DNA of 64,000 bases, taken from Armatimonadota bacterium. Its GTDB lineage: Bacteria; Armatimonadota; Fimbriimonadia; Fimbriimonadales; Fimbriimonadaceae. The translations under genes were made by a program, and so were the position numbers. Below the pieces are notes generated by a model, which was given only the letters and a program-made list of their open reading frames with translations, did not search any database and was not told where the DNA came from. The stretch spans positions 1-64,000 of the forward strand of contig JAKOXK010000060.1 of the NCBI GenBank assembly GCA_029781035.1, in the 5' to 3' direction. Below, one piece after another: positions 32,855 through 35,956 of the stretch. How positions within the stretch are numbered: the stretch's first letter is position 1; every line of letters starts with the position of its first letter.

Positions 32855-32869
32855 GAGTTGTTACCGGGA

Positions 32870-34177
32870 ATGCTCACAGTCGCAGAGACTTCGCGCCTGC
32901 TCGAGGCGGTTCACCTGGCGACGCGAAAGCTCGCCAGCACGGCTGACTTGCGCCTCGTGCTGCGCGATGTGCTGGAGATCTGCGTGCAGGCTGTCGGAGC
33001 AGAGGGCGGCACGATCTACATCCACGAGCCGAACACGAACCGGCTCCGTTTCGCCTATGTCTACCCCGAGGTTGTGGCTGAGCGTCTCGAACGACTCGAC
33101 ATTCCCGACGACTATGGAGTGGCGGGCGAAGCGTTCCAGGGCCGCAAGACGTTGATCAGTTCCTTCCCCCAAGACGGGCAGCCAGGCCGACTGAGGATCC
33201 GGGAGAAGACCGGCATTGCGGTGCGGAACATGATCACTATGCCGCTCGCCATCGCGGACATGGATCCGATCGGGATCGTTCAGGTCGTCAACAAACGCAA
33301 CGGAAACTTCAACGAAACCGACGAAGTCGTGCTCGACACGGTTTCCGACGTCTCGACCTTGGCGATCTTGAATTCGCGGCTCCTCAGGCAGCAAACCCGG
33401 GTCGCGTCCCTTGAGGGTATGGGGCGAGCCGCCCATGACCTTGCCAACAAGGCTGGGGTCCTCCTGACCTTTGTCGAGGACTTTCGGCGGAACCTCCTAG
33501 GTCTGAAAGATGCACTCGACAAGGGACCGACCAACTCAGAAGCTTGCTTCCACCTCGACATGCTCGAAGGGTCTTTCGAGGACGTCTTCGCTCCATACAG
33601 CGAGCGCGTTTACCGATACGCTCGCCTGATCAACGATCTTGCGGCAGGCAAGAAACTGACGCCGAAGTTGAGGACGCAATCCATGGCATCGGTCGTGCTC
33701 GACGCGGCTCAATACCTCGAGGCGCCCGCGAGGAGGTCTCACGTCAGCATTGAATATGACCTGCAACAGGACGCTCCCGAATTCGAGTTCGACGACCTCT
33801 ACGTCATCCGCATTGTCGAGAACCTCGTCGGGAACGCGATAAAGGCCGTGTCCGAGATGGTCACAGACGAATGGCTTGATGAGCACCGGGAGCAGGAGGA
33901 CGCCTATTTTGGCTCGGTCACTGTCCGGTATCGGTATGGCGATGGCCGGCACCGCTTGGAAGTCTCGGACCAGGGCCCGGGCATGTCCCCTGCCACTATC
34001 CGGCAGGTTCTGGCAGGAACCGCGGCTTCGGCGTGGCAACGCAACACCGGAACAGGCCTCGGTACCAAGGTTGTCATGGAACTCTCCGCTGCCCTTGGCG
34101 CCGAAGTCTCAGTGCAGTCGAAACTCGGCGAGGGAACTACGTTCGCCGTTGAATTCCCCAACTCGATCGCAGGCTAG
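32870..34177 (+). CDS. GAF-domain sensor histidine kinase
   Basis: 435 residues. GAF domain ~20-180 (GAEGGTIYIHEPN, YGVAGEAFQGRKTLIS, MPLAIADMDPIGIVQVVNKRNG). Then a helical segment with a non-standard H-box (RAAHDLANKAGVLL) in place of the usual HELR/HEI, and a C-terminal ATPase with NLVGNAIKAV, DQGPGMSP and GTGLGTKVVMELS. There is no adjacent response regulator, so it is an orphan. ATG 32870 is chosen; a TTG 12 nt upstream is possible. It meets the PP2C gene tail to tail, overlapping by 4 nt. Confidence 0.85.
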   Translation: MLTVAETSRLLEAVHLATRKLASTADLRLVLRDVLEICVQAVGAEGGTIYIHEPNTNRLRFAYVYPEVVAERLERLDIPDDYGVAGEAFQGRKTLISSFPQDGQPGRLRIREKTGIAVRNMITMPLAIADMDPIGIVQVVNKRNGNFNETDEVVLDTVSDVSTLAILNSRLLRQQTRVASLEGMGRAAHDLANKAGVLLTFVEDFRRNLLGLKDALDKGPTNSEACFHLDMLEGSFEDVFAPYSERVYRYARLINDLAAGKKLTPKLRTQSMASVVLDAAQYLEAPARRSHVSIEYDLQQDAPEFEFDDLYVIRIVENLVGNAIKAVSEMVTDEWLDEHREQEDAYFGSVTVRYRYGDGRHRLEVSDQGPGMSPATIRQVLAGTAASAWQRNTGTGLGTKVVMELSAALGAEVSVQSKLGEGTTFAVEFPNSIAG

Positions 34178-34995
34178 ACCGACTCCATCGAGTCGATCCG
34201 CGTGACGATGCACGTGGCGTTGTCACTGCCCCCACCGACCAGGGCTGCTCCAACGAGCTTCCATGCCGCCTCGCTCGGACCCCCTTCGCCGAGAATGCGC
34301 CCCAGATCCTCGTCGGAAACATGGTTGGTGACACCGTCGGAACAAAGCATGTAGACGTCGCCCTCACGGAGTGAAAACGTGAAGATGTCGGGCTCGGCGT
34401 CGTTCTCAGTTCCAATGGCTCGCGTCAACATGTGGCGGTTAGGGTGGGTCTCAGCTTGTTCACGGGCCATCACGCCGCCGCGGACCATGTCTTCAACCCA
34501 GGTGTGGTCCACCGTCAGCTGTTCGATGGCTTGCTCCCGTAGCCGGTAAATCCGTGAGTCGCCGACTTGGGCGATGTAGCCCTGGTCCTGCAGGAGGATC
34601 AGGGCGCTCAGGGTGGTCCCCATGCCACGACGGCTCGGCACGGCCCGAGCCACGTCGAGGACGAAGCGGTTCGCAGCCGCGACCGACGCGCGAAGCGCTG
34701 CCTCGGGCTCAATGCTCGGGTGGTTCAAGTAGACGTCAATAAAGGTCTTGGTCGCCAGTTCGCTCGCGATCTGGCCAGCCTCGTGTCCGCCCATGCCGTC
34801 GCATACGATGAATACAAGGCCCTTTGAAGCCAGTTGAGTCTCAGACTCGGTCAAGTAGTACTCGAATTTGTCTTCGTTGTTCTCTCGCACCCGCCCCAAG
34901 TCTGACTTGGCGCCCACCGTGATCCGCGGTCTGGTTTTGAGTTCGACCGTGGGCAGTAGTTGTGCGACTTCGTATTCGGCTGTGGTCTCTTCCAT
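34174..34995 (-). CDS. PP2C-type serine/threonine protein phosphatase
   Basis: 273 residues, PPM family. Metal-binding and core motifs: SDLGRVRENNEDKF, FIVCDGMGGHEAGQIAS, GMGTTLSALIL, AQVGDSRIYRLR, LTRAIGTE, YMLCSDGVTNHV, and GGGSDNATCIVTRI. It removes phosphate from Ser/Thr on kinase targets. The ATG at 34995 (MEETTAEYEV) is preferred; an upstream in-frame start would overlap the FHA gene. It lies directly downstream of the FHA-protein gene, a common Ser/Thr-kinase signalling neighbourhood, but no kinase gene is in the window. Confidence 0.92.
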   Translation of the reverse strand: MEETTAEYEVAQLLPTVELKTRPRITVGAKSDLGRVRENNEDKFEYYLTESETQLASKGLVFIVCDGMGGHEAGQIASELATKTFIDVYLNHPSIEPEAALRASVAAANRFVLDVARAVPSRRGMGTTLSALILLQDQGYIAQVGDSRIYRLREQAIEQLTVDHTWVEDMVRGGVMAREQAETHPNRHMLTRAIGTENDAEPDIFTFSLREGDVYMLCSDGVTNHVSDEDLGRILGEGGPSEAAWKLVGAALVGGGSDNATCIVTRIDSMESV

Positions 34996-35053: not shown

Positions 35054-35956
35054 TTACCCTTTGAACCGGACTGTTGCGGTGATGCTCCCCAGCCGGATGA
35101 CATCGTCTTTGCCCAGTTTGGTCCGCATGTTCGCAGCGAGCTTGGCCTCGTTCAAGAGCGTTCCGTTCGTAGAACCTGTGTCCGTCAAGAAGACCCCTTC
35201 TTCCGTCACTTCGATCAGACCATGGGTACCGCTCACGTAAGGATCCTTGATGACAATGGCGTTGTCGTCACGTCGGCCGAACTTATGTTGGCCGATGGCG
35301 AGTGGGATCTCCCTGTCGGGCAGCACCAGTGTCGCGACGGACTCGTCAACAGTGGGCGCGACTGTGATTGCCGCCGTCCGACCAGACATGGCTTGCATCG
35401 TCTTCGACGACTCTCCGGGCAGAGACAAGGTCAGCTCAAAGCCGCCCAGCGAAATCCTGTCGCCGTTGTTGAGGGTTGACTTCTGGCCTTGGGCCAACGG
35501 TGAACCACCCACCTTGGTCCCGTTCGTCGAACCCACGTCTTCCACCGTGACCGTTCCACTTTCCAAAGTCAGCTGGCAGTGCCTTCGGCTGACCCGGGTG
35601 TCGTCGATCAAGATGTCACCGGCCCGGCCGATCACATTGAGGCCCGGCCTGAGCTGGTGCTCGCGACCGGTGGACTCCACGAGGACAGGGAGTTGGACGG
35701 CCGGAGCGCCGAACGCGTCTCCGTCCAGGGCCCTTTCGAAAATCAGGCCACAGTCGTTGCAGAACATGACGCCGGGCGGATTGAACGACTTGCAGACTGG
35801 GCACTGTACGGGCTTGATCGTTACCGTCGTGTTCAACGATGGGGCCGCACCCATAATCGTCTTGTTGGGGTCGGCTGCCGGTGCACCGGTCATGACTGTA
35901 CGGTTCGGATCGGCCACCGGCGGTGCGCCGAGCTGGGTGCGGTTCGGATCGGTCAT
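35054..35956 (-). CDS. zinc-ribbon protein with two FHA domains
   Basis: 300 residues. Residues 1-45 contain three spaced DPN[RK]T units with Thr7, Thr20 and Thr33, 13 apart. A zinc ribbon follows (Cys52/55/66/69). FHA 1 (~95-180) has VIGRAGDI, RVSRRHCQL, DVGSTNGTKV; FHA 2 (~215-300) has KFGRRDDNAI, YVSGTHGLIEV, DTGSTNGTLL. FHA domains bind phosphothreonine. The repeated Thr motif next to FHA domains resembles the logic of GarA/OdhI, where an N-terminal phosphothreonine docks on the protein's own FHA. An AGGA Shine-Dalgarno precedes the ATG. Confidence 0.9.
   Translation of the reverse strand: MTDPNRTQLGAPPVADPNRTVMTGAPAADPNKTIMGAAPSLNTTVTIKPVQCPVCKSFNPPGVMFCNDCGLIFERALDGDAFGAPAVQLPVLVESTGREHQLRPGLNVIGRAGDILIDDTRVSRRHCQLTLESGTVTVEDVGSTNGTKVGGSPLAQGQKSTLNNGDRISLGGFELTLSLPGESSKTMQAMSGRTAAITVAPTVDESVATLVLPDREIPLAIGQHKFGRRDDNAIVIKDPYVSGTHGLIEVTEEGVFLTDTGSTNGTLLNEAKLAANMRTKLGKDDVIRLGSITATVRFKG

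Follow-up and report, generated by a model that had tools for sequence, protein, structure and literature searches.

A candidate ArnAB-like phospho-signalling module with threonine arrays on an FHA/zinc-ribbon protein and a VWA protein in Armatimonadota

The window analysed here, a 64,000-nucleotide stretch on contig C21 of an Armatimonadota draft genome of 3.42 Mb (96% complete), encodes a protein with DPN[KR]T units in its N-terminal tail, a zinc ribbon and two FHA domains, which we propose, with a probability of about 0.6, to be the reader half of a phospho-dependent FHA-VWA assembly resembling archaeal ArnA-ArnB. We consider the reversible joining of two proteins more likely than a switch in which one protein simply locks itself. 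The parts of such a module and its logic are already known; a bacterial ArnAB-like module in which threonine arrays are carried by both partners would be new as far as the literature searched shows. The parts, their motifs and conservation, the linkage of their genes and the homology of the VWA protein to ArnB are evident from sequence comparison. The relevant features of the window are as follows.

35054..35956, minus strand: gene for the FHA/zinc-ribbon protein, candidate ArnA-like reader (ORF, translation, two Pfam FHA domains)
35816..35956, minus strand: N-terminal tail, residues 1-47, predicted disordered (AlphaFold2 pLDDT <50, 5-sequence alignment)
35936..35950, minus strand: unit 1, DPNRT, Thr7 (translation and motif scan)
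35897..35911, minus strand: unit 2, DPNRT, Thr20 (translation and motif scan)
35858..35872, minus strand: unit 3, DPNKT, Thr33 (translation and motif scan)
35825..35827, minus strand: Thr44 codon, the best-conserved tail threonine, 8 residues before Cys52 (56/57 homologues; invariant column of alignment A1)
35750..35803, minus strand: zinc ribbon C52-C55-C66-C69, CxxC-x10-CxxC (cysteines invariant in A1)
35423..35686, minus strand: FHA domain 1, about residues 91-178 (invariant A1 residues; profile matches)
35063..35335, minus strand: FHA domain 2, about residues 208-298 (invariant A1 residues; profile matches)
34174..34995, minus strand: PP2C phosphatase gene, 273 aa, 58 nt past the FHA stop codon (ORF; Pfam PF00481; NCBIfam Stp1/IreP)

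The open reading frame list and its translation place the FHA/zinc-ribbon gene on the minus strand from 35956 to 35054, with an ATG start and a product of 300 aa. An earlier note on this DNA had described T7, T20 and T33 in DPN[RK]T units spaced 13 residues apart, in front of the ribbon and two FHA domains, and this layout is borne out by the translation and by Pfam, which detects both FHA domains (119.8 bits against a cut-off of 20.7). The PP2C gene that it placed directly downstream is also there, its ORF starting 58 nt after the FHA stop and its product passing the NCBIfam Stp1/IreP model (238.2 bits against a cut-off of 230). The PP2C gene (minus strand) and a GAF-HATPase gene (plus strand, 32858-34177) are convergent, and their ends overlap by 4 nt (window 34174-34177). 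A homologue of the FHA/ribbon protein (E<=1e-10) was found in 132 of 151 searched genomes, with 57-59% identity in named Fimbriimonadaceae relatives (L192-L194).

In alignment A1, which has 26 distinct sequences once a duplicate row (P0001 = L030) is discounted, the invariant residues include G110, R111, S123, R124, H126, S143 and N145 in FHA1 and G227, R228, S242, H245, S262, N264 and G265 in FHA2. We take these to be the residues that contact phosphate, a putative assignment. The phosphate contacts of DgcB serve as the comparison (PMC6733907). Used as a profile, A1 matches FhaA, GarA, DgcB and OdhI chains over FHA1 and the ArnA chains 5a8i and 8s05_C over FHA2. AlphaFold2, run with five sequences, gives confident FHA domains (10-residue blocks of 81-91) at an overall pTM of 0.36, and the domain arrangement and any docking of the tail are therefore unreadable from this model. 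Residues 1-47 fall below 50 pLDDT, a result that is neutral on tail docking because the model cannot include phosphate. Among the top Foldseek matches of the model are chains of FhaA, GarA, DgcB and OdhI, with the matching FHA domain unspecified.

To compare the tail across the group, 57 distinct FHA/ribbon homologues were assembled, proteins failing the expression for ribbon and two FHA domains (e.g. L032, L164) being excluded. At the position of T44, exactly 8 residues ahead of the first cysteine of the ribbon, 56 of the 57 have a threonine, the one exception being L170. At least one DPN[KR]T is present in 32/57 and at least two in 25/57; a further 25/57 contain none, and all of these DPN-free homologues lie outside the window's family. 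L160 and L161 (MSEETVALQP[VI]EC) have one N-terminal threonine left before the ribbon. Since T44 is so widely kept and 25/57 homologues are without DPN, T44 would seem to be the original site and the DPN units an expansion that arose afterwards in the lineage. The earlier note had regarded the three DPN threonines as the switch sites, and had considered that homologues keeping function without the repeats would speak against it; the units prove to be neither ancestral nor universal, and outgroup homologues do keep the domains and the operon without DPN, which goes part of the way towards that objection. The number of units in the sequences examined varies from 0 to 3 in FHA tails and from 0 to 4 in VWA tails.

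Within the window's family, the D, P, N and T codons of the units differ within a gene at 84 of 176 positions for FHA genes (44 unit pairs) and at 110 of 252 for VWA genes (63 unit pairs), and these silent differences imply that selection keeps the protein identity of the units, as opposed to their being recent tandem copies. The proline, asparagine and lysine or arginine around the threonine are also conserved in this family, and in the outgroup loci examined DPN is mostly lost and the threonine retained. The fifth residue is threonine in 156/156 DPN[KR]x stretches from FHA and VWA tails, and serine in 0/156. Summed over four groups, [KR]T and [KR]S number 249 versus 5 in the tails and 503 versus 215 in the remainder of the same proteins, counts given without a probability for related sequences whose tails were trimmed by a Thr-motif rule that biases per-tail site counts. 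FHA domains recognise pThr and not pSer, so this preference for threonine over serine fits an FHA ligand. Glycine at pT+3 counts against the assembly proposed here, as it is not known to be favoured by the FHA domains studied so far.

The second carrier of the array is a VWA protein. When the window's genome was scanned for the single motif, 21 sites came up and the reversed control gave 3. Clusters, of three sites each, are confined to the window FHA gene and to one VWA gene, which lies on contig C64 (MQQDPNKTVLTGFDPNKTVIGG...). The remaining 15 matches are single and scattered, and a spread of the motif to other proteins was rejected. Across 85 related genomes, the back-translated motif doublet is present in 44 and its reversed control in 0. 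The ORFs with at least two DPN[KR]T that were examined (n=31) comprise 15 FHA/ribbon and 16 VWA proteins, a set that excludes doublets listed without a locus and in which L067 and L068 were assigned to FHA/ribbon by eye. Lacking an FHA domain of its own, the VWA protein must use its array in trans. A candidate phosphosite, EKTL[MIV]G, occurs within the last 45 aa of 53/54 VWA proteins. The VWA gene in the window's genome sits behind two genes for other FHA proteins, which are apparently membrane-bound. Membrane-type FHA partners were considered as a general third array carrier and rejected, few of the relatives' proteins being similar. In the window's genome, one membrane-type FHA protein, encoded beside the VWA gene (L060:10686-12146, minus strand), does have three NQTxAY repeats between its two FHA domains.

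The best PDB match of the VWA family, searched as a profile of alignment A3 (24 rows), is 8s05_A (E 1.1e-16), with profile positions 84-429 aligning to chain positions 44-368, a sequence-level match that is weak in the final helical part; 5a8j, another ArnB-like chain, matches A3 over 41-250 only. Some VWA N-termini (MEQTRII, MESTRII, MEETRII) resemble VEQTRKI of ArnB, a suggestive likeness over a short stretch. The same kind of VWA protein is encoded in a MAG labelled Planctomycetales (E 7.3e-103; L272:1345-2739, plus strand), with an N-terminal array spelt DATIVS, DATIVS, DATVVA and DATVIG (four DAT[IV][IV][SAG] units) and ADKTLGAT near the C-terminus, and the genome carrying it also encodes a ribbon-FHA-FHA protein. 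Thus, the array recurs with changed letters, threonine excepted.

Chain 8s05_A is ArnB; structure 8S05 shows it in complex with ArnA, both from Sulfolobus acidocaldarius (PMC12852372), a pair that regulates the archaellum together with the kinases ArnC and ArnD and PP2A (PMC6509490, PMC12852372). ArnB consists of a vWA domain, a beta-sandwich and a C-terminal helical bundle and ArnA of a CxxC-x10-CxxC ribbon (C21, C24, C35, C38) followed by an FHA domain, and the two genes, Saci_1210 and Saci_1211, are neighbours (PMC12852372). The ArnA ribbon alone holds unphosphorylated ArnB loosely; ArnC phosphorylates several threonines of the ArnB bundle, T353, T363 and T375 within 5 min, T353 lying in a duplicated ETT motif; and after phosphorylation the ArnA FHA domain binds tightly, with no single ArnB site essential (PMC12852372). 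The module described here shares the ribbon of the same spacing followed by FHA, a VWA family whose profile aligns over the vWA and beta-sandwich parts, a Hanks-type kinase and a Ser/Thr phosphatase, and neighbouring FHA and VWA genes in 24/28 'same phylum' genomes, an arrangement from which the window's genome differs. The redundancy of threonines on ArnB, of which one belongs to a short motif that is duplicated, has its parallel in the several threonines of the VWA protein here. Unlike ArnAB, the module is bacterial, has two FHA domains and carries threonine arrays at the N-termini of both partners; the kinase and phosphatase share the operon in many members, and the phosphatase is PP2C, not PP2A, for which reason we file the module as ArnAB-like and not as a member of ArnAB. 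By these matches its closest solved counterpart is ArnA-ArnB, in which binding is in trans, and not GarA/OdhI.

Other systems share parts of this toolkit. The window protein scores 86.8 bits with the FhaB equivalog model and 85.9 bits with the T6SS TagH model, below the respective cut-offs of 125 and 120.25. The PpkA-PppA-Fha1 threonine phosphorylation pathway of the T6SS combines the same types of Hanks kinase, PP2C and FHA protein. PpkA of the T6SS also has a vWA part. In Actinobacteria, the operon running from fhaA-fhaB-pstP to pknB resembles the module in joining FHA, PP2C and kinase genes, along with cell-wall genes, but differs in having no VWA protein and no ribbon. The TerY-P triad comprises a TerY-type VWA protein with PP2C and a kinase in the Ter locus. 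As to a named anti-phage function, the FHA and VWA proteins of the module gave no PADLOC match, and the kinase and PP2C match the kinase and phosphatase models of several PADLOC systems.

In more distant members of the phylum, 14 loci (L152-L165) have the order VWA, FHA/ribbon, PP2C, Hanks kinase; in six more (L166-L171) VWA accompanies FHA, and the stretch taken contains no kinase. Among the 28 'same phylum' genomes with an FHA match, tallied by hand, which include the weak matches G122, G136, G148 and G149 (the place of G122 not being listed), FHA and VWA are adjacent in 24 and a kinase lies in the cluster in 14. FHA, VWA and kinase are all-or-none in 36/38 'same phylum' genomes (22 with all, 14 with none), with cut-offs set in E-value gaps after the values had been seen, the FHA matches of the same four genomes counted as absent, and the genomes being related, so that a Fisher test here does not rest on independent events. 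The two mixed genomes are 85% and 80% complete. PP2C adjoins the FHA gene in at least 40/57 cases, a lower bound because the regular expression used is crude. The window's genome itself departs from this linkage, which counts against the reading: its VWA and kinase genes lie apart from the FHA-PP2C pair, the kinase on another contig. Further exceptions that count against it come from family and order genomes of at least 90% completeness: an FHA match is missing from G028 and G101, where VWA and kinase are present, G043 has no VWA match, G104 has a weak VWA match only (7.4e-11) and G041 a weak kinase match only (4.0e-14). G031 and G049, two members of the family from a genus with 1.5 Mb genomes (97% complete), are without FHA/ribbon and VWA matches and have a weak kinase match only.

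We also observed a neighbouring arrangement in MAGs reached via Anaerolineae/Anaerolineales loci (L274:503-3434 and L275:581-3574, minus strand), where a PP2C-like ORF, a J-domain-VWA fusion and a small FHA protein adjoin. The J domain of L274 is supported by NCBIfam, and by its composition this neighbourhood is a related module with a DnaJ-type domain. Four FHA/ribbon proteins of the phylum (L154:3333-4574, L158:2896-4068, L162:2762-4018 and L170:3424-4353) appear by eye to start with a J-like domain.

The window's genome has one Pkinase (PF00069) match and one PP2C (PF00481) match, the latter being the window's PP2C, and with this phosphatase gene adjoining the FHA gene, a phospho-cycle is plausible. 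A hydrophobic stretch is seen in the Hanks kinase, which is apparently membrane-anchored. All 30 kinase activation loops examined from the window's family fit [EQ][PQ]N[LI]T[MILQ]DG. These loops (L092-L121) have one threonine before the GTP motif, e.g. LTMDGQVFGTPSYMSPE, and an aspartate at the usual place of the second threonine that many Hanks kinases carry.

These data bear on three other explanations. The first is a switch of the GarA/OdhI type, which the earlier note had proposed for the three DPN threonines, with a graded or two-site response: once phosphorylated, a tail threonine would fold onto FHA1 or FHA2 of the same protein and block it, and three or four sites with two FHA domains would grade the response. 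We regard this as unlikely yet a real rival, with some points in its favour. A disordered threonine tail is predicted before a canonical FHA domain, as in GarA/OdhI, T44 keeps its fixed distance from the ribbon, the FHA1 profile is nearest to FhaA, GarA, DgcB and OdhI chains, and the tails of DgcB and OdhI bind their own FHA domains (PMC6733907). The threonine tail, the two FHA domains and the adjacent PP2C of that proposal stand. However, the same units are present on the VWA partner, and self-inhibition, possible as it is for the FHA protein, cannot explain arrays on a protein that has no FHA domain. The window protein also lies far under the OdhI and FhaB equivalog cut-offs (60.9 bits against 200 for OdhI). 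GarA and OdhI have one FHA domain, an ETT motif and no ribbon, whereas the window protein has two FHA domains and a ribbon. Moreover, the window's genome encodes at another locus a protein whose shape comes nearer to GarA: L006:1321-1749 (plus strand; G000:C10 near 52448), a single-FHA protein of 143 aa as taken, carries LEETSTVED at its N-terminal end, covers positions 15-126 of the OdhI model, which has 130 (47.4 bits against the cut-off of 200), and is, by its sequence, the most GarA-shaped protein seen in this genome.

The kinase loops themselves suggest another role for DPN[KR]T, namely a docking or substrate motif that imitates the activation loop and so recruits or competes with the kinase, since the loop pattern of the window's family is similar to the tail unit. 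Loops and tails do not covary across families, however: EPS/EPT loops accompany DPN tails in one family (L177-L184) and EPN loops occur without DPN tails in another (L154, L162, L163), which reduces this to a weak rival that we consider very improbable. It is also improbable, if slightly less so, that the arrays act as a linear motif independent of phosphorylation that binds a fixed partner such as the ribbon, the VWA metal site or another protein. Conservation of the residues around the threonine in the window's family would agree with such a motif, but outgroup loci mostly lose DPN and keep the threonine, as at T44 and in the DATIVS array of L272, and this threonine is never serine.

For the favoured reading, a reversible FHA-VWA assembly, we infer which protein is phosphorylated, which binds which and in what direction the switch runs. 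By analogy with ArnAB, the zinc ribbon would keep the FHA protein in loose contact with a VWA protein whose layout resembles ArnB. One Hanks kinase would then phosphorylate T7, T20, T33 and T44 as well as the N-terminal DPN[KR]T units of the VWA protein and, probably, the conserved EKTLxG at its C-terminus. Recognition of these phosphothreonines by FHA1 and FHA2, for the most part in trans, would tighten and crosslink the FHA-VWA complex, which the membrane-bound-looking FHA proteins encoded beside the VWA gene could join; the FHA protein may also bind its own tail in cis, in competition with this. Phosphorylation would be reversed by the PP2C, whose gene adjoins that of the reader. Several redundant sites would give a graded response, and with the sites equal this response should be robust as well, as reported for ArnB. 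More speculatively, and we hold this to be unlikely, the two FHA domains per reader, the three or four phosphothreonines per tail of reader and VWA protein and the membrane-type FHA proteins as further readers might form a valence-tuned network, in which one kinase drives a reversible assembly of higher order, acting as a counting device or as a cluster anchored to the membrane; its threshold would depend on how many tandem units there are, a number that evolves by gain and loss in separate lineages.

A bacterial ArnAB-like module with dual threonine arrays was not described in the literature searched, most subscription journals lying outside it, so that a prior description is possible; the pairing of Armatimonad and forkhead-associated returned nothing there either. 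Papers containing DPNKT or DPNRT appear unrelated, judged by their titles and the beginnings of their abstracts. The discussion of the ArnA-ArnB structure mentions bacterial structural relatives of vWA and not a VWA/FHA/PP2C/kinase operon (PMC12852372).

The analysis takes a motif in one protein to a defined bacterial phospho-signalling module of VWA, ribbon-FHA, PP2C and Hanks kinase, which is nearly all-or-none in the deeper branches of a little-studied phylum (36/38) and has a core in common with ArnAB, the regulator known from archaea. Since the window's genome has a single kinase match and a single PP2C match, it could be possible to resolve in vitro all relations of kinase, substrate, reader and eraser, and the natural variation in unit number would provide a direct test of whether multisite phosphorylation gives a graded or a threshold response.
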